Source of the DNA: Natronocalculus amylovorans
Lineage (GTDB): Archaea > Halobacteriota > Halobacteria > Halobacteriales > Haloferacaceae
Length of the DNA stretch: 64,000 bases
Reading direction: 5' to 3'
Assembly (NCBI RefSeq): GCF_023638035.1
Contig: NZ_JAKRVX010000003.1
Location: 124,001-188,000, forward strand
In this document: positions 1-9,638 of the stretch, piece by piece
How positions within the stretch are numbered: the first letter of the stretch is position 1
Layout: every line of letters starts with the position of its first letter
Notes under the pieces: generated by a model
The model's database searches: none
What the model was told of the DNA's origin: nothing
What the model saw: the letters and a program-made list of their open reading frames with translations, nothing else
Translations under genes and position numbers: made by a program

Positions 1-324
1 TCGAGGGACGTGGATTGAAACGGTTTGTTCGCCGGGGAGGATTCGCTCACTCATGATGGAGAACGATCCTGCGCCCTCGGGCTGTTGGACAGATTCGGAG
101 ATCGTCACTCGTGTTGGCCGATCGGCTTCGAAGACAATCCGAAAGACTTCGGCTTCTGAATCGTACTCGTGATCCACGACTCGGACATGATTATCAACAT
201 GGAGTGGGTGACTCTCATTTTGTTGGGCTTGGGCTGTATCAGTAGCTTGAGCGGCAACACCACTAACTCCCATTATGAGTGATCCAACGAGTACGAATAG
301 TACGACCGTGAGCTTTGTCTTCAT
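1..324 (-). CDS. Exported protein, partial (runs off left edge)
   Basis: The reading frame opens at the ATG at 324 and stays open to the window edge, giving 108 residues with no stop. Residues 1 to about 25 form a classical signal peptide: MKTK, a hydrophobic core, then VSGVAAQA, a good signal peptidase site. The rest is polar and acidic. The start overlaps the stop of the upstream spike-like gene as ATGA, so the two are translationally coupled in one leftward operon. In pleolipovirus genomes a small membrane or secreted protein often follows the spike gene, so a virion or envelope role is possible, but I do not recognise the family. The C-terminus is not visible. Confidence 0.7.
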   Translation of the reverse strand, partial: MKTKLTVVLFVLVGSLIMGVSGVAAQATDTAQAQQNESHPLHVDNHVRVVDHEYDSEAEVFRIVFEADRPTRVTISESVQQPEGAGSFSIMSERILPGEQTVSIHVPR

Positions 325-2153
325 GACGTGCTCACCGACCCAGCAATGAAAACAATGAGCAAGGCAATAACGCCGTAAACAATACCACCACCTCTATCAA
401 ATTCGGGAAATGAAATTCCACCGCCTTGAGCGTCCTCGTATTTCTCGATCAGTCTTTCATTTTCCTCGCGCATTGCGTCCCACTCATCGGATGAGATATA
501 GTTGTCATCAGTTTGTGGTTCACTTGATGAAAACTCAGCACTGTTGTATTCCTCACCATCAGAATCAGTGATTGATTCGATGGTGAACTCATCTTGCAAT
601 TGGACGGTTTCGTATTGCGTTTGGTCCATATCACTGTAGAATTCGATTGATTCGACGTTTGTAACAGAGTCGTCTAGATCGTCGGAGAGGTCAACAGTCC
701 AATGTTCAGGTCCGTCTTCGTCGTCTTCGCCTTCAGAGTCGAAGTCGGAACCCGATATATGGACAGTCTCACCAGCAACAGTTTCAACAGTGTAAAGAGT
801 CTCATCGAAGGGTTCAGCGGTGAACGTGAGAACCCCACCGTCGATACCCTCCTCGAAATCGCCCCACGTACCGTGACCGCGTGATATGTCGTACGTGAGA
901 TAGACGGACCCATCGAGATCGTCAGGGTCGTAGCTCTCTCCAGAGTTGATACCGTCGTCGGGAGGCTCAGTGAGTGCAAGCGACCCGTAGATAGTTGCAT
1001 CTATGTCATGGAGATAGACCTCCGCCTCACGTTCGAGATCGACGGGGATATTGAGTGCTTGGAGATCAGCGACCGCTTGCGGGTAGCCTTCGTCATCGGG
1101 CATGAGTTCGGCCAATTCACGACTTGTGAATAGCTCCTCAGTGTCGAGATCGCCAGCTTGAACCTCTCCATAGACGCCAGAGACCCATGTTTCAAGACCA
1201 TCTTTTACGTCGTCAAATTCGTCATTGACTTTTTCGACGACAGAGTTCCAGTCGTCATAATCGAGATATTCGGGAGCGTCGAAGTCAAGCGTCGGCTTGA
1301 CCTTCGACCGAATATGATAATCGCGTGAGTCTATGTTACTACCCGTCGTCATAGAAACACTGCTCGATGTTTTATCACGGTCAAAGGGAGTCCAATGAGT
1401 TGTGTGGTCTCCCTCTTGGCTACCTTGGTGACCACCGTCAAAGTAGACATAGGTCTCAATCTCTACGAGATCATGAGTGTCCCCGTTGGGGAGCTCGTAT
1501 TCTATCGTTTCGATAGTAATGTCGTCATCGGGGTTGTCTCCATCCCACGCACCGCTCCCGTATTCATTGAGTTCAACGTTATCGAAGGACTCGGGAACCG
1601 TGAGTTCGTCATGTTCGCGGATGGATTCGACAAGATATTCAAGCTGTTGTGCAGACTCATTCCACGAGCGAATGAGGTTTGTAAGTACTGTTGATTGATA
1701 TTCAGTGACGGCTTCGTGGGCAGCATCGAGCACGTCTGATTCAGATACTTGTTCATTTAGTGCATCGATTGCAGCTATCTTCCCATCGGCATATGCAGCA
1801 TGATCGAGACCAACGAAAACCGTATCATTATCAACGAACGTGCTTGCGTTGTCCGACTGTCGGTTAGTGATTGCATCAGCGACGTTTTTTTGGAGTGCAT
1901 CAGGAGTCATCCCCTCAGGTGGGGGATTCGAGCCGATCGCCTCAGTTTCGCGGAGCGTCCAGCCGATAGCCATGCCAGCCGCAGCAGAGCCAGCAGTGGC
2001 CGCGCCGATAACGACCGCGGGAGCAATGGCTTCAGCCTCACCGACCGGTTGCCGATCAAATTTGTTGCTTGCCCCGACCACTCCAACGGTTCCGATCGCT
2101 GTTGCTGCCGATCGCCGCATGAACGCGCGTCGATCCATCACTTCGGTGCTCAT
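321..2153 (-). CDS. Spike-like envelope protein (betapleolipovirus type), Tat-exported
   Basis: This 610-aa protein opens with a twin-arginine signal (RRAFMRRS at residues 8-15 followed by a hydrophobic run), then has a second glycine/alanine-rich hydrophobic segment at about 44-65, a long acidic ectodomain, a short heptad-like stretch near 556-580 (EENERLIEKYEDA), a GGG linker and one membrane helix at about 588-608. Signal sequence, large ectodomain, coiled coil and C-terminal anchor is the architecture of pleolipovirus spike proteins, which mediate receptor binding and membrane fusion. It follows a four-helix membrane protein and a 32-aa membrane peptide with overlapping start and stop codons, as expected of a viral structural operon. 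The assignment to a provirus is inferred from architecture and order; a chromosomal S-layer-associated protein is the alternative. Confidence 0.65.
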   Translation of the reverse strand: MSTEVMDRRAFMRRSAATAIGTVGVVGASNKFDRQPVGEAEAIAPAVVIGAATAGSAAAGMAIGWTLRETEAIGSNPPPEGMTPDALQKNVADAITNRQSDNASTFVDNDTVFVGLDHAAYADGKIAAIDALNEQVSESDVLDAAHEAVTEYQSTVLTNLIRSWNESAQQLEYLVESIREHDELTVPESFDNVELNEYGSGAWDGDNPDDDITIETIEYELPNGDTHDLVEIETYVYFDGGHQGSQEGDHTTHWTPFDRDKTSSSVSMTTGSNIDSRDYHIRSKVKPTLDFDAPEYLDYDDWNSVVEKVNDEFDDVKDGLETWVSGVYGEVQAGDLDTEELFTSRELAELMPDDEGYPQAVADLQALNIPVDLEREAEVYLHDIDATIYGSLALTEPPDDGINSGESYDPDDLDGSVYLTYDISRGHGTWGDFEEGIDGGVLTFTAEPFDETLYTVETVAGETVHISGSDFDSEGEDDEDGPEHWTVDLSDDLDDSVTNVESIEFYSDMDQTQYETVQLQDEFTIESITDSDGEEYNSAEFSSSEPQTDDNYISSDEWDAMREENERLIEKYEDAQGGGISFPEFDRGGGIVYGVIALLIVFIAGSVSTS

Positions 2154-3546: not shown

Positions 3547-4017
3547 TTATGAAGACACGTCGGACTCAGTGAACTCGTATGTTTTGAGTGTGGTTGAGCG
3601 ATCGCCGTCATCAAATATAAGTGAAACAGTGTCACCTGCTTCTAGTTCATCACTAGCTTCTGTTGCATTTGCATCAAGTGTTCTTCCAGCATTGAAAGTT
3701 CCTTGAGAAATGTCTTTTTCTACATCAATATTTGAAGTGTTGAAGCTACCAACCACGTCTAAGTTATCTGCACTAATGGAGTCACCACTTCGGTGAGTGA
3801 ACGTTACAAGAGTTTCATCCGCCTCAAAATCATCCAATCCGTCCCCAGGGCTTGCGTCAACAGATGCACTTGGTGTGGTACTACCAATATCGTCACCGAG
3901 ACCAATGACAAATGTTCCGATCACTGCTGCGAGAATGACAGTGATTGCGACCATGAGGATAACCCCTATGACTGGAGAGACTGCGCGATCGTTTGTGAAT
4001 AAGTTTTTGAGTTTCAT
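3547..4017 (-). CDS. Archaeal type IV pilin-like protein
   Basis: This 156-aa protein opens MKLKNLFTNDRAVSPVIGVILMVAITVILAA: a basic N-terminus, the prepilin peptidase region before AVSPVIGVILMVAITV, and a hydrophobic helix, which is the hallmark of archaeal type IV pilins (PilA-like). The remainder is a small acidic beta domain of about 110 residues. The product would be processed by PibD and assembled into adhesive pili, or be a pseudopilin of unknown partner. No pilus assembly ATPase or platform gene is visible here, so it is an orphan that would use machinery coded elsewhere. It converges on the RHH-like gene. Confidence 0.85.
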   Translation of the reverse strand: MKLKNLFTNDRAVSPVIGVILMVAITVILAAVIGTFVIGLGDDIGSTTPSASVDASPGDGLDDFEADETLVTFTHRSGDSISADNLDVVGSFNTSNIDVEKDISQGTFNAGRTLDANATEASDELEAGDTVSLIFDDGDRSTTLKTYEFTESDVSS

Positions 4018-4190
4018 GTTTTCACGTTTGACACGTATGACCGGTAGAAGGGCTTATCATTGTCTGATACATCAGAACACTTGCAGGCCAACTGAGGCCG
4101 CACACATCCTTCTTGCCAAGTACTTGTGTCGTTAGTACCAACTACTCACCAAGTGACTTAAAATCGATGGGTCACCTATCAACAATGAGA

Positions 4191-4997
4191 ATGAGCACTC
4201 CAGGTGGGCGAGGAATCTTTTGCAATGAATCTCCTCTAATTGATACCTATTCACCGACCGGCGGGCTTTCCGCTGCGCAATCCGTCCAGCAGTACCGTCG
4301 TGTCCTTGAATACTGCGCCGAGCATCCACAACAGAAGTCTATGGCAGTCTCATCTGCACTTGACCTCCCACGAAGTCGTATCCGTACGTGGGTAGACGAG
4401 AACGGAGCACCGGATGCAGCTCGTGCAGTCGATGAAGCACACACGTTGGGGTGGCTTGGAGAGTTGGATACTGCGCGACAAACCCACTTTTCTACCCTCG
4501 TTGCAGGAATCTTCTCAGGTGGCTCGATTTCATCCGACTTGTACGTACCATCGTGGACCGTCGATCGCCCATCTGTGACTGACGCGATCGAAACGGCACT
4601 CCGAGAGCTTGGGTCTTCGGTTCGGTGCCGTCATGAAAATGTGGACAGCCGATCGACAGAGATCCTGCCAGAGAGGCATGCGTCACTCCTTGGGCGTGTC
4701 TTGGTGTGTATGGGTGCTCCGCTTGGACAGAAGGCAATTGACGACGATCTTCGAGTCCCGCCGCGCCTGTTTGATGCTTCTGAAGAAGTCCGGTTGGCAT
4801 TCTGTGAGGTGTACCTTCGAAATCGACTCAGCCCAATAGACGGACGAGCAAGTGGCCCGATTATGGAAGATCGACCAGCAGTGTATCGTGAGCAACTGGC
4901 TAACTTATTCCAGTCAGTCGGGATCGATGCGCGATCGGCAGAACGAACAGTTACCGTTCGATTCGACTCGCTGCCGTTTTCGATCGAAGAACTCTAA
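4191..4997 (+). CDS. Halo-specific protein with homeodomain-like HTH N-terminus, unknown function
   Basis: The 268-aa product from ATG 4191 begins MSTPGGRGIFC and carries a helix-turn-helix-like stretch at about residues 25-65 (QSVQQYRRVLEYC, then ALDLPRSRIRTWV). I recall related haloarchaeal proteins starting with MSTP-GRGIFC and SPTGGLSA, often in variable regions, but no biochemical function is known to me. Two further ATGs lie 24 and 78 nt upstream in frame; the family start favours 4191. The C-terminal 150 residues contain no motif I recognise. It could be a sequence-specific DNA-binding protein; LAGLIDADG or nuclease residues were not found. Confidence 0.6.
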   Translation: MSTPGGRGIFCNESPLIDTYSPTGGLSAAQSVQQYRRVLEYCAEHPQQKSMAVSSALDLPRSRIRTWVDENGAPDAARAVDEAHTLGWLGELDTARQTHFSTLVAGIFSGGSISSDLYVPSWTVDRPSVTDAIETALRELGSSVRCRHENVDSRSTEILPERHASLLGRVLVCMGAPLGQKAIDDDLRVPPRLFDASEEVRLAFCEVYLRNRLSPIDGRASGPIMEDRPAVYREQLANLFQSVGIDARSAERTVTVRFDSLPFSIEEL

Positions 4998-5435
4998 AAT
5001 CAATCGAGTTTTTCACGCCAATATCTTCGTTCAAATACTCCACATTTTACCCACACCGATTCGAATGTGTTAGTCTGAGGCTCGATCGAGCGCTTTCGAT
5101 GTTACATTCTCACCAGTTGCTTCTTTGAGATTGTCCTACTCTCGAGCACGAGTATCTGTCTTTTCGATTCGTATAATTGCACAACCACCTCGAAATCATA
5201 GGGTTTTGCGGTGACTCAAACTGTGTTTGTATATAAATAGGCCAACTCTTGGCGTTGGGCTGGGCCACGATATGTGTACAGACGATCGCGATTCGGTAAT
5301 TTTCGCACAACCACCGACCGGATTACTTGTGCAAAAACGCGGAAGGGATTTTTACGACGTGCAACCCCACGCGTGTGGGTGTCCTTTTTTCGTGTGGGGG
5401 TGATTCGCCCAGAGAATTAGGAAAGTAAAAGATGA
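4998..5435. other. 438-nt gene-free stretch with repeats and a hairpin plus T-tract
   Basis: No convincing gene is seen. An 11-bp direct repeat GCACAACCACC occurs at 5179-5189 and 5305-5315. GCACAA (5305-5310) and TTGTGC (5327-5332) form an inverted repeat. CCCAC-GCGT-GTGGG (5366-5379) followed by six T residues at 5385-5390 resembles a terminator for rightward transcripts and immediately precedes the AT-rich island. Confidence 0.5.
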
Positions 5436-5819
5436 TTATTTTTCGTCATCTAGATCCATCATCAATTTTACGATGTCTCCTCTAGACACATCTTGATTGT
5501 CAAGAGAAGGGTTTTTTGTTAAGCTCTTGGGTACACTTGTAAAATAAGACGAGAAGTCAAGTCCTCCCGTGTTTTCATCCGTCACCATTATCGAGTATTT
5601 TTCTTCAATTTCAACTGGTCTTACTCTTGCAATGCGATATTCAATCTGTCCAAGGTCTTCACCACTATCTGGATCTTCAATCGGGTCGCTTATTTTGTAA
5701 ATTCCATATCTTTGGGACTCTGTAACTCCATCTTTAGTACCAAGATTAGTCATAACAGTATATTCGTTTATAGTCTCGGCCACCTTACCCTTAATAGTCA
5801 TATTTGAGTCCTCGCTCAT
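5436..5819 (-). CDS. Small FlgT_C-like (beta-barrel) protein of an AT-rich gene pair
   Basis: This 127-aa protein contains KGKVAETINEYTVMTNLGTKDGV, then YGIYKI and DPDSGEDLGQIEYRIARVRP. I recall the same layout (a KVIEV strand, NLGSKDGV, then DPETGE-LG) in small bacterial proteins with the C-terminal domain fold of FlgT. The start is either the ATG at 5819 or the one at 5801, which gives a smaller overlap with the upstream membrane gene. It is co-oriented and overlapping with that gene, so the two probably work together. The DNA is very AT-rich and lacks the CGATCG hexamer, which points to acquisition from a distant source. Function is unknown. Confidence 0.65.
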   Translation of the reverse strand: MSEDSNMTIKGKVAETINEYTVMTNLGTKDGVTESQRYGIYKISDPIEDPDSGEDLGQIEYRIARVRPVEIEEKYSIMVTDENTGGLDFSSYFTSVPKSLTKNPSLDNQDVSRGDIVKLMMDLDDEK

Positions 5820-6591
5820 ATCTAATTTTTTGGAGCGTCTTTAGAGTCGTTTGTAACCGCTCTTTTTCAATGTTCGCTACGTCGTCAGTTAAAATTTTCA
5901 TCCTTGCGTACCCATTTTTGAGATCACTTTCTGCGTTTTTTTTCCAGTGTTCATCATCGTCTTTCCATTCGGTTATAACAAATTCAAATAATTTACCTGA
6001 CGTACTCTCAGACTCAATTAGTTCAGCTTTTCCAATTCGGCCATTCACAATTCCACAATGATTATCATCTGAGAATACATTGAATAATAGACCTTTAGCC
6101 AAACTCAATTCGTCTTCGGAGTTTGCGACAATAATCTCATTATCGCTCCGATAATCAACAACTCTAAGACCATCTGTTTCTTCGGTAGAATTCAAATATT
6201 CAGTAATTGCAAGCTGTTTATTTATTAAATTAATAGTCTCTTCTATTGGATCTCCGTATTTCCAGCTTTCTTGTAATTCAATCTGCTCCCCTATTTCATT
6301 GAGCAGTGGGATTACAGACGAGATATATTCGTGTTTTTGGCTAACAATCGGTGATATATCTTGTTTTTCACCAATTGCAAACCGCTTATCGTATATTATA
6401 ACAGAATTATGTTCCGATGATTCGCTTACAAGGAGTAAAAAGCCAAATATAAAAAGCAGAAATCCAATAAAGAGGGTTCCTGCTGACCCAAGGGAAATTG
6501 TATGAAACAGTATATCATACGTAACTACGACCATTATAATAAAACCAAGAAGTAGGGCTGCAAGAGATATAATTGGTTTTAATTTTCCCAT
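5791..6591 (-). CDS. Two-helix membrane protein with cytoplasmic domain, unknown
   Basis: The 266-aa protein starts at ATG 6591. Two membrane helices at about residues 7-30 and 37-57 form an N-terminal hairpin, followed by a roughly 200-residue soluble domain that is rich in Lys, Glu and Ile, unlike its acidic haloarchaeal neighbours. I recognise no catalytic motif. It overlaps the FlgT_C-like gene by up to 29 nt. A short membrane hairpin joined to a soluble domain, coupled to a small partner gene, inside an AT-rich island next to phage-type repressors and an integrase, is a layout seen in several antiviral defence systems; that role is a guess from context only. Confidence 0.7.
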   Translation of the reverse strand: MGKLKPIISLAALLLGFIIMVVVTYDILFHTISLGSAGTLFIGFLLFIFGFLLLVSESSEHNSVIIYDKRFAIGEKQDISPIVSQKHEYISSVIPLLNEIGEQIELQESWKYGDPIEETINLINKQLAITEYLNSTEETDGLRVVDYRSDNEIIVANSEDELSLAKGLLFNVFSDDNHCGIVNGRIGKAELIESESTSGKLFEFVITEWKDDDEHWKKNAESDLKNGYARMKILTDDVANIEKERLQTTLKTLQKIRYERGLKYDY

Positions 6592-6668
6592 ATGAGTTAG
6601 TTCCTGTTAAAGTAAAAACTCATATTACTTTTATTTTAGTATTGGAGTAAGTAGCTATGACACTGCGC

Positions 6669-6962
6669 TCATTGCTCCTGTGACCATCGACGTAATAGAT
6701 CTGCATCTAGATCGCCACGCAGGTACGCTAATCCCCAGGTTGTAATCTCATACATATCTGAATGAACTGGCTCGATCAACTCTCGTTCAGTCAGCTCACG
6801 ACAGCGCTCGCGAACACGAGCAGTGGAACATTGAAGATCGTTGAAACTCGGATCGTCAGCAATCAATTCAGGGGTTGACCAACCTTCTTCGGCAAGGTGT
6901 TCAAGAATTCGTTCATCAAGCTGTTGCATCCACCGCCCGGTCTTTCGTATTGGAGAGCCCAT
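6669..6962 (-). CDS. PhiH1 repressor-like winged-helix protein
   Basis: The 97-aa protein has the family pattern RKTGRWMQQLDERILEHLAEEG, then a recognition region (TARVRERCRELTERELIEPV) and a wing (MYEITTWGLAYLRGDLDADLLRR). Winged-helix proteins of this type are named after the repressor of halovirus PhiH1 and are found in proviruses and plasmids. It lies just downstream of, and in the same direction as, a second member of the same family, with only 5 nt between the genes. It probably controls lysogeny or maintenance functions of the element. Confidence 0.8.
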   Translation of the reverse strand: MGSPIRKTGRWMQQLDERILEHLAEEGWSTPELIADDPSFNDLQCSTARVRERCRELTERELIEPVHSDMYEITTWGLAYLRGDLDADLLRRWSQEQ

Positions 6963-6967
6963 TCTAT

Positions 6968-7255
6968 CTATGCACTCGCAGTACCCTCTCCTTCGCTCAT
7001 ATCCTGCAGTTCATCAGCGTCAAGCTCACCCTCAAGATACCGCTCTCCTTGGTCGGTGATGACGTAAACACCATTTCCTAAATGCGTAAGAAGCCCATGA
7101 TCAGCAAGCCGACTAAGACGGCGTGTGATCGTAGATCGAGAGACCCTGATGTACTTATGATTGGCAATATCTGTTGCATTACCGGAATCTGAATCTCGGA
7201 TAATCTCTAAGATTCTATCATCCCAGATCGTCATCCATGCACCACTCTTTCTCAT
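6968..7255 (-). CDS. PhiH1 repressor-like winged-helix protein (second copy)
   Basis: From ATG 7255 the 95-aa protein begins MRKSGAWMTIWDDRILEIIRD, a common opening of this haloarchaeal family; a longer frame from 7291 would put start sequence inside the palindromic operator and is less likely. The HTH region is VSRSTITRRLSRLADHGLL and the wing VYVITDQGERYLEGELDADEL. It is first in an operon with the 97-aa paralogue. Palindromes containing TGCACA overlap its promoter, so autoregulation is likely. Confidence 0.8.
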   Translation of the reverse strand: MRKSGAWMTIWDDRILEIIRDSDSGNATDIANHKYIRVSRSTITRRLSRLADHGLLTHLGNGVYVITDQGERYLEGELDADELQDMSEGEGTASA

Positions 7256-7267
7256 TAGCACACACAT

Positions 7268-7368
7268 TGCATTAATGCACAATGTGTGCATTGGATAGTG
7301 AGTAATAGCACACTATAGCCTTAATCACTCATTGTGTTTGAATTCAATTAATCAGTGCATTTATGCAC
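7268..7368. promoter_or_regulatory. Cluster of palindromic operator sites
   Basis: Four perfect palindromes lie in about 100 nt between the repressor operon and the zinc-ribbon/integrase operon: TGCATTAATGCA (7268-7279), ATGCACA-ATG-TGTGCAT (7275-7291), TTGAATTCAA (7338-7347) and GTGCAT-TT-ATGCAC (7355-7368). Three share the half-site ATGCAC(A). Position between divergent operons suggests that one or both winged-helix proteins bind here and switch between them, as phage repressors do. Confidence 0.6.
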
Positions 7369-7388
7369 ACCTAGCTTAATTGTGTACT

Positions 7389-7473
7389 GTGAAGTCACCT
7401 GTTGGTTGTAGATGAGTCTTGTCGGGTGTAGTAGAAAGGACGGCGTCCCAGCGCCGCCCTGTGGTGGCTTCAC
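7389..7473 (+). promoter_or_regulatory. Structured 5' leader of the zinc-ribbon/integrase operon
   Basis: GTGAAGTCACC (7389-7399) and GGTGGCTTCAC (7463-7473) pair with one mismatch to close an 85-nt structure that contains an internal GGCG-TCCCAG-CGCC hairpin at about 7444-7457. The stem ends 12 nt before the first ATG of the operon. In haloarchaea most transcripts are leaderless, so a long structured leader is unusual. It could be a regulatory leader or a recombinase binding site. Confidence 0.4.
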
Positions 7474-7485
7474 TGTTCGCAAACA

Positions 7486-7719
7486 ATGAGCCAAAGTAGC
7501 TCTGCGGGTGTGAGAACCCGCACACGACAAGATGCGCCGCCCATCAATAACCCCACTGATCGCCCATGCCCACACTGTCATATTCGATCGGCAACTGGCT
7601 TCGACGCAAACAGAAGCACCCCAAGCTGTAGGTTGTGTGCGTCGTTGCAGCGGGTCGATCGGTTCATGCTCGGTTCTGAGTTGATTACGGTTCGATCGGA
7701 GGCCGATCGGAATGAGTGA
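7486..7719 (+). CDS. Small zinc-ribbon protein, first gene of integrase operon
   Basis: This 77-aa protein contains a CPHC pair and a CRLC pair about 19 residues apart, a likely zinc ribbon, in an otherwise basic and polar chain. Its stop overlaps the next ATG by 8 nt. Integrases of the IntSNJ2 type from temperate haloarchaeal pleolipovirus SNJ2 are known to be co-transcribed with small accessory proteins needed for integration, and this gene holds that position. It may be an accessory DNA-binding factor or directionality factor. Confidence 0.6.
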   Translation: MSQSSSAGVRTRTRQDAPPINNPTDRPCPHCHIRSATGFDANRSTPSCRLCASLQRVDRFMLGSELITVRSEADRNE

Positions 7720-7999: not shown

Positions 8000-8121
8000 T
8001 GACCATCACACAGTTTGCGTACTGCGATCGGTGTGGAACGCGACGTGAGCTCGTTCCGGTTGGTGACGGCGTGTTTGCGTGCTACTATTGTGATGCGATT
8101 GTTGGAGGTCGATCGAAATGA
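7999..8121 (+). CDS. 40-aa zinc-ribbon protein, third gene of integrase operon
   Basis: ATG at 7999 to TGA at 8119-8121 encodes 40 residues with CDRC near residue 9 and CYYC near residue 30, a minimal zinc ribbon. Its start overlaps the stop of the preceding gene (TGATG) and its own stop overlaps the integrase start (ATGA), so it is embedded in an unbroken chain of coupled genes. Tiny zinc-ribbon proteins just before the integrase are a feature of SNJ2-like modules. Confidence 0.7.
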   Translation: MTITQFAYCDRCGTRRELVPVGDGVFACYYCDAIVGGRSK

Positions 8122-9161
8122 TCGAGCCGTCTGACCTAACACCACGTCAAGCACAGCAGAATTTTCTTTCAAAACGGAAGGCAAGCAGCTCTGACTGGAC
8201 GATTCGAACGTATCGATACCAGCTCAACGAGTTCGTTCACTTTCTCGAAGAGAATGGTATCGAGACGATCGGCGAAGTGAACGGCTGGGTGATTGACCAG
8301 TATGAGCGGAAACGCCGTCAGGAGGTGAAGCCTGCAACTGTTCGCGGTGACATGGTTGCAGTGAAGCAGCTGATAGATTACTGTGTCACGATCGAGGCTG
8401 TGGACCCGACGCTACCGGAGCGGATCGACGTACCTACGCTTTCGAAAGAAGATGGCAGTAGCAGCGATCGGCTGGAAACGAAAGACGCGATAGAACTCTT
8501 GGATTTCTTCAGGAATTCAACTGCGTACTACGGAAAACCGATGCACGCAGTACTAGAGATTTTTTGGTGTGTTGGGTGCCGTCTTGGTGGGCTACAGGCA
8601 CTCGATCTCAAAGACTACATCGAGGATGGGCCGTACCTGCATTTCAAGAACCGAACTGGTACGCGGTTGAAAAATGCAAGCGATGGTGAGCGACCTGTGC
8701 AGATTAGCCCGCAGGTTGCTGATGTGCTTGATACGTACATCGCTCGAGAGCGTTGGGATGTTCGCGACGATCGCAGTCGTGAACCGTTGTTTACGTCTCG
8801 TCGTGGGCGGGCATCGAAGACAACGATTCGAAACTGGACGTACACAGCGACCTTCCCGTGTTGGTTCCGATCGTGTCCACATGGTGAGGTTCCGTCTACG
8901 TGTGAGTTCAAGCAAGTTCATCGGAAACAGAGTCAGTGCCCGTCATCGAAAGGTCCCCACGCGATCCGTACTGGATCGATCACGTGGCAGTTGAATCGTG
9001 GGATTCCGATCGAGGTGGTGTCTGAGCGAGTGAACGCGAGCCCGGATACGATCAAGCGGCATTATGATAAGGAAGAGCCGTTCGAGGAACTTGAGCAGCG
9101 GCGTTCGCAGTGGGTTCATGACCTCGATATTGATAAGGAAAATGAGAGTTTAGGTGCGTAA
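8118..9161 (+). CDS. Tyrosine recombinase/integrase, IntSNJ2-like
   Basis: The 347-aa protein has an N-terminal SAM-like core-binding domain (about 10-95) and a C-terminal catalytic domain. The catalytic residues can be read: Arg155 in GCRLGGLQALDL, His281-x-x-Arg284 in PHAIRTGSITWQL, and the nucleophile Tyr316 in RHYDKEEP. A cysteine-containing insert (CWFRSCPHGEVPSTCEFK) between the two catalytic Arg boxes may bind zinc and is a feature of haloarchaeal integrases. It is the last gene of an operon with three tiny zinc-ribbon genes. It would integrate and excise the element that includes the viral cassette. Confidence 0.9.
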   Translation: MIEPSDLTPRQAQQNFLSKRKASSSDWTIRTYRYQLNEFVHFLEENGIETIGEVNGWVIDQYERKRRQEVKPATVRGDMVAVKQLIDYCVTIEAVDPTLPERIDVPTLSKEDGSSSDRLETKDAIELLDFFRNSTAYYGKPMHAVLEIFWCVGCRLGGLQALDLKDYIEDGPYLHFKNRTGTRLKNASDGERPVQISPQVADVLDTYIARERWDVRDDRSREPLFTSRRGRASKTTIRNWTYTATFPCWFRSCPHGEVPSTCEFKQVHRKQSQCPSSKGPHAIRTGSITWQLNRGIPIEVVSERVNASPDTIKRHYDKEEPFEELEQRRSQWVHDLDIDKENESLGA

Positions 9162-9638
9162 TCATGGATATCAGATTTTTGGTAGGTCAGAAAACGGGAG
9201 GTAGAGGGTTTGAGGGTGTTGATAATGGTGTTGGGGGGTGTCCCTCCGTCCCCATTCCGTTGTTAAAACTTTGTTGACCCTTAGGTTAGTCCTAACCGAT
9301 TCTACAGTACTAACTCTTTCGGGGGTTGATGGTCCCGCTCCGTAGCTGAGTGTGAATAGCCCGCGCTGTACGGACCATTGATGTCAGTTATGTACTATAC
9401 GTACGTTCGGAGAGCCCGTACATGACTCGCTGAGCTGGGCGCTCAGCATGCCAAGGGAGCCGATCGCATCTGCGATCAGTCCGTTCAAAAAGTCATGTAT
9501 TCAGTACGCAGCGAACAAATTTGTCTTACAAATCAACCAAACAATAATACCGTATGTCGTATAAAGATCCGTTTTAGTTGTTCTATCGACAATACAGACG
9601 ATCCGCGATTTTATTTTCCTTTCACTCGCCTATTATGT
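9162..9638. other. 477-nt gene-free stretch after integrase, possible attachment region
   Basis: No gene or tRNA is recognised. It contains a GGTTAG-TC-CTAACC palindrome (9284-9297), a 7-bp inverted repeat ATGGTCC/GGACCAT (9329-9335 and 9372-9378), ATGTAC/GTACAT arms around a CGTACG core near 9390-9425, a CTGAG/CTCAG hairpin near 9432-9448 and a GATCGCA-TC-TGCGATC palindrome near 9463-9478. Density of inverted repeats just past an integrase gene suits an attachment or recombinase binding site. The matching second copy would lie outside the window. Confidence 0.4.

Follow-up and report, generated by a model that had tools for sequence, protein, structure and literature searches.

Proteins with two transmembrane (TM) helices are a recurring endpoint of bacterial immunity, and the known effectors of the 2TM-beta type are switched by nucleotide signals. 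The 2TM-beta protein of Panoptes belongs to a two-gene unit; without an active partner it is toxic, and it kills by making the inner membrane collapse (PMC12657230). Silencing through a partner, as seen for the Panoptes effector, is what we propose for the gene pair of this study, which occurs in a haloarchaeal provirus and lies within the window (the whole 64-kb stretch of DNA that was analysed). According to a structural model and a TM scan of the family, the longer protein of the pair, hereafter the hairpin protein, has the build of the CBASS Cap15 and Panoptes 2TM-beta effectors, namely, two N-terminal TM helices and a C-terminal beta domain. However, its partner is a predicted barrel protein, unlike the enzyme partner of the Cap15/Panoptes systems. 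The hairpin proteins had no match to Cap15-type sequences in Pfam, PADLOC, or NCBIfam, Cap15 was absent from the listed structural matches of the hairpin-protein model, and no nucleotide cyclase was matched among the scanned neighbours of the window pair. Membership in the Cap15/Panoptes family was therefore rejected, given that neither a Cap15-type sequence nor an adjacent cyclase was found.

The fold predicted for the small partner is shared with the barrels of FlgT and TsaP. FlgT is an exported protein of the flagellar basal body, whereas the small partners are standalone proteins on mobile elements and have no TM or signal-like segment; unlike FlgT and TsaP, they are coupled to a hairpin gene and, in most loci, have no flagellar or pilus context. 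In its genomic location, the pair resembles the antiviral hotspots of phages, which likewise lie between a repressor and an integrase or beside AbiD, retron-type reverse transcriptase, DUF4238, and RM genes; the DUF4238 family appears in a paper on these hotspots (PMC9122126). However, the pair is not among the systems that we found described there, and it also occurs in archaea and on plasmids. The literature search returned no paper with FlgT_C and no description of the pair. As far as the searched libraries and papers go, the module is undescribed.

The gene pair and its provirus

An AT-rich island of two overlapping genes at 5436-6591 had been proposed in the initial annotation, and this description was borne out. 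The two minus-strand ORFs (Table 1) overlap by 29 nt, and with a GC content of 0.36, compared with 0.51 for the window, they form the lowest-GC 1.16 kb within all 64 kb. The enrichment in Lys and Ile was also confirmed: the Lys fraction is 0.071 in each protein (window mean, 0.026) and the Ile fraction is 0.113 in the hairpin protein, both values being the maxima of the window. The proteins are not less acidic than others, as had been claimed; their D+E fractions are 0.162 and 0.205, compared with a mean of 0.149 among window ORFs of at least 250 aa. Although the motif CGATCG is indeed absent from the pair, this absence has no evidential weight because it is accounted for by the AT-rich composition alone; of random copies of the segment with matched composition, 84% are likewise without the motif, and the CGATCG-free gap (5283-7585) extends over the repressor genes as well as the pair. 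No model in Pfam, NCBIfam, or PADLOC covers either gene of the window pair.

Table 1. Positions of the genes and sites considered in this study, in window coordinates unless a locus is named.
Feature	Position	Strand	Remarks
Hairpin protein gene	5791..6591	minus	266 aa; ORF list, TM scan
Small partner gene	5436..5819	minus	127 aa; ORF list
Winged-helix repressor-like gene	6669..6962	minus	97 aa; directly upstream of the pair; homologous to the pair-side repressors of G367; no Pfam match of its own
Winged-helix repressor-like gene	6968..7291	minus	107 aa; HVO_A0261_N and MarR matches; 56% identical to G367 counterpart
Tyrosine integrase gene	8118..9161	+	Phage_int_SAM_1 and Phage_integrase; 51% identical to G367 integrase
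Right attachment-site repeat TCCCTCCGTCCCCA	9241..9254	.	Other copy is the tRNA-Trp 3′ end, window -6659
Pleolipovirus spike gene	321..2153	minus	36-40% identical, along most of the gene, to spikes of Halorubrum pleomorphic viruses; relatives at this identity are HRPV-13, -2, -3, -6, -9, and Humcor2
DUF4238 gene	-4080 to -3133 (L126:11921-12868)		Outside the window, same provirus; PF14022, E 1e-34
Pair nested in type III operons of two distant bacteria	L050:5006-9973; L058:4970-9993		

The integrated element with repressors that had been suggested as the setting of the pair is a provirus; winged-helix repressors and an integrase are both present. The provirus is pleolipovirus-like and spans approximately 15.9 kb (window -6659 to 9254; G000:C14 about 117342-133254). 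Its insertion site is the 3′ end of a tRNA-Trp gene that contains an intron, and the element is bounded on either side by a 14-bp repeat. Compared as a candidate for an empty attachment site, the genome G074, in which synteny stops at tRNA-Trp, supports the left boundary alone; its right flank is not conserved. For the supposed DNA-binding gene at 4113-4997, Pfam gave no match. The DUF4238 protein encoded in the same provirus belongs to a family that was reportedly validated in a study of phage antiviral hotspots. An archaeal type IV pilin-like gene (window 3547-4017; Pilin_N, E 3.5e-23) also lies inside the provirus, which is unusual for a pleolipovirus-like element.

The pair is rare in haloarchaea. 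Among the matches listed, the hairpin gene and the small-partner gene occur in the same 3 of 391 sampled haloarchaeal genomes (the window's own, G367, and G072); haloarchaeal matches at E of about 5e-4 (L017-L022; G064, G129) were excluded as probably spurious. The proteins of G367 are 39% and 48% identical to those of the window pair, their genes again overlap, and they are flanked by two homologous repressors in an element whose integrase, spike, and ATPase are also homologous. The G072 locus has a large DUF7845 gene in common with the window provirus (33% identity). A fourth archaeal pair is carried by a Haladaptatus plasmid; the genes after it encode a helicase-type protein and a nuclease with matches to type IV restriction and PDC-S02 models. 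The hairpin protein is conserved in G367, G072, and Haladaptatus. At the G072 locus (L009:1504-2576), two more small genes lie 3′ of the pair; one of them has, by eye, a GIY-YIG-like stretch and gave no Pfam match.

Predicted structure of the two proteins

The TM helices of the hairpin protein span residues 4-29 and 34-55 approximately, and in its AlphaFold model (mean pLDDT 64) they are followed by a helical linker and the C-terminal beta domain. The top two PDB matches of this model are FlgT structures, with weak scores (E 0.03, prob 0.92-0.95), and a profile comparison of the soluble domain with the small barrel gave no significant homology. Therefore, the FlgT likeness of the hairpin protein derives from a weak structural match. 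The pair may plausibly consist of a membrane-anchored barrel and a related free one. The soluble domain varies widely, being a coiled coil in many Firmicutes prophages and a beta domain elsewhere. No known sensor or enzymatic domain was found, and the first genome scan with the hairpin protein as the query returned no match.

The small partner has no TM segment, no signal peptide was seen, and its AlphaFold model is a beta-barrel with a pLDDT of about 95 over residues 10-80 and a disordered loop. The likeness to FlgT_C noted in the initial annotation stands at the level of the model, for which FlgT structures are the best matches in the PDB (E 2e-4), and of the family, in which 17/40 members match Pfam FlgT_C (PF16538); however, the window protein itself matches neither FlgT_C nor any other Pfam model. 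The profile search with the small partner also finds TsaP, and the family has a conserved DP-T-GE-LG-type motif. Judged by its predicted fold, the small partner is an FlgT_C-type barrel. Five small proteins of the first scan, including the window protein, match phrog_27728 (function unknown; best E 7e-9), whose library entry gives neither a function nor a hairpin partner. FlgT_C proteins of approximately 300 aa, in which the domain is C-terminal, form a class separate from the standalone small partners; these proteins (most of L069-L125) served as controls.

Distribution of the pair and coupling of its genes

Starting from the small protein, we searched phage, plasmid, IMG/VR, and GTDB collections for homologues with short patterns, so the counts below are those of samples rather than of a census. 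At least 48 standalone members of the small-partner family were found. In 39 of the 48 loci listed, the gene upstream encodes a protein with an N-terminal TM segment, mostly a two-TM hairpin. The two genes overlap in 24 of these 39 loci, and their spacing lies between -35 and +20 nt in 37. The hosts include Firmicutes, Proteobacteria, Cyanobacteria, Gastranaerophilales, Campylobacterales, Bacteroidetes, one actinobacterium, and Archaea. Furthermore, the pair is AT-rich compared with its flanks in 38/39 loci (mean 9 points, p=8e-8), and the anomalous composition of the window pair is therefore a property of the whole family. The pair is thus a conserved, mostly overlapping, patchily distributed, AT-rich unit carried by prophages, plasmids, and defence operons.

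Defence and lysogeny genes beside the pair

A gene-neighbourhood search had been recommended in the initial annotation, and it places relatives of the pair in prophages, a satellite-like element, and plasmids, as well as beside or inside known defence operons. In the type III RM operons of a Micavibrio (L050) and a member of the Gastranaerophilales (L058), the pair sits exactly between mod and res, as identified with the MTase_III and REase_III models. Elsewhere it adjoins AbiD in a satellite-like arrangement, where an integrase gene and a primase-like gene are close by (L057), a type IIG RM gene (L037), an HSDR_N protein gene (Lacticaseibacillus phage P7.1), or a directly following DUF4238 gene of the same family as that in the window provirus (L035). 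In phage phi575, a lone partner gene has cI on one side and AbiD on the other. In L012, L023, L041-L045, L074 (a Lysinibacillus prophage), and L128, the pair lies in a lysogeny module, among repressor, ImmA-type, and integrase genes.

With homology to genes of these kinds from other loci as the criterion, we found defence or lysogeny neighbours in 16/39 pair loci compared with 1/52 control loci (p=2e-6), a test whose null is imperfect because the controls are chromosomal FlgT_C genes. In the genome-derived loci alone, the figure is 6/19 (p=0.001). Like defence and superinfection-exclusion cargo, the pair is associated with mobile elements and with known defence genes.

In one P2-type prophage, a retron-type reverse transcriptase gene (best model RT_VI) lies beside the pair (L025:3450-4553, minus strand, and 5454-6378).

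Proposed function and alternatives

The pair is most likely an undescribed immunity module, either a membrane effector restrained by a barrel or a superinfection-exclusion complex, and we infer its defence activity from the features described above. The initial annotation had singled out an acquired, coupled gene pair as a candidate for an undescribed defence system. The coupling and the mobile and defence context lend this proposal partial support, whereas the arguments from acidity and CGATCG fail. That the pair has an immunity or exclusion function of some kind is probable. For the more specific reading, in which a mobile two-gene immunity module is carried as cargo by a pleolipovirus-like provirus and the whole chain from restraint to effector operates, we estimate a probability of roughly 40%. 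It is a more tentative proposal that the pair represents an undescribed anti-virus system that Bacteria share with Archaea and that travels as virus, satellite, or plasmid cargo, its membrane effector being controlled by directly touching an FlgT-type barrel rather than by a nucleotide signal.

In the mechanism that we propose, the two proteins would come together through their beta domains on the cytoplasmic side of the cell membrane, and the two-TM protein would be the membrane effector. The small barrel would restrain this effector and read the trigger, which may be the arrival of a virus or a disturbance of the complex by that virus. Upon triggering, the two-TM subunits would cluster and disturb the membrane, and the infected cell would stop making the rival virus. 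Both the anti-virus activity and the action of the pair at the membrane are presumed here. Because the pair adjoins the provirus repressors, its expression in the lysogenic state is suggested. If the proposal is true, a widespread two-gene form with a protein barrel as the sole partner would represent a different mode of control from that of the known 2TM-beta effectors, and archaeal pleolipoviruses would carry the kind of antiviral cargo known from P2/P4-type elements, with DUF4238 in the same provirus. The pair is small enough for direct laboratory testing.

The main rival to the restrained effector is superinfection exclusion without killing, in which the anchored complex, seated beneath the membrane, would stop related viruses at genome entry or at a step of injection, in the manner of prophage exclusion proteins. 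The membrane anchor, a Lipoprotein_Ltp-family neighbour, and the many loci in prophage lysogeny modules are consistent with such a role. However, type III RM operons and small plasmids also carry the pair, and there the exclusion of related viruses is a less natural role; moreover, exclusion does not require a small regulatory partner. We regard this explanation as less likely than the restrained effector. The two cases of nesting between mod and res and the helicase and nuclease genes that adjoin the Haladaptatus pair could also mean that the pair is no independent system but supplies accessory subunits, which would tether nearby defence or replication proteins to the membrane or regulate them there. 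This view is improbable: most loci have no common neighbour, and the pair alone moves between contexts.

A role in the envelope or in housekeeping, akin to that of FlgT, TsaP, or CsgG-type assemblies, appears less probable still. The closest structures of the partner are FlgT and TsaP, there is a distinct class of approximately 300 aa with a C-terminal FlgT_C domain, and a pilin gene lies in the same provirus, yet the partner has neither a signal peptide nor a TM segment, its presence is patchy (3/391 genomes among the matches listed), and it is encoded at low GC on mobile elements. The least credible explanation is that the pair encodes a structural or replication function of the provirus itself. 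Pleolipovirions contain membrane proteins, and the pair is carried by two haloarchaeal elements whose integrase, repressor, ATPase, and spike genes are homologous. However, neither pair gene matched a pleolipovirus of the phage collection among the matches listed, whereas the spike gene found 14 haloarchaeal virus records there, also among the matches listed. The conservation in isolated pleolipoviruses that marks a core gene was thus not seen, and for this reason the pair looks like cargo. Moreover, its composition is far from that of the remainder of the provirus, and its relatives occur in tailed-phage prophages and plasmids.

For the restrained effector, the coupling of the two genes provides a further argument. 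Homologues found separately had been named in the initial annotation as evidence against the proposal, and such separation was seen for the partner, which occurs without a hairpin gene in Staphylococcus phage phi575, the Streptococcus satellite Javan321, and some chromosomes. The genes otherwise stay together, in 39/48 of the loci listed and in 3/3 haloarchaeal genomes, and searches that started from hairpin proteins reached only partner-bearing loci, including the new locus L128, with no hairpin gene lacking a partner among the matches listed. This one-way dependence is what effector restraint predicts. The pair resembles toxin-antitoxin systems in that its genes overlap or adjoin and its putative toxin was not found without the partner among the matches listed. 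Because it may stand alone, the partner may also have a role of its own. In two cyanobacterial loci (L053 and L056, the latter without a hairpin gene), a very long gene, chlH-like by eye, is located upstream of the small gene.
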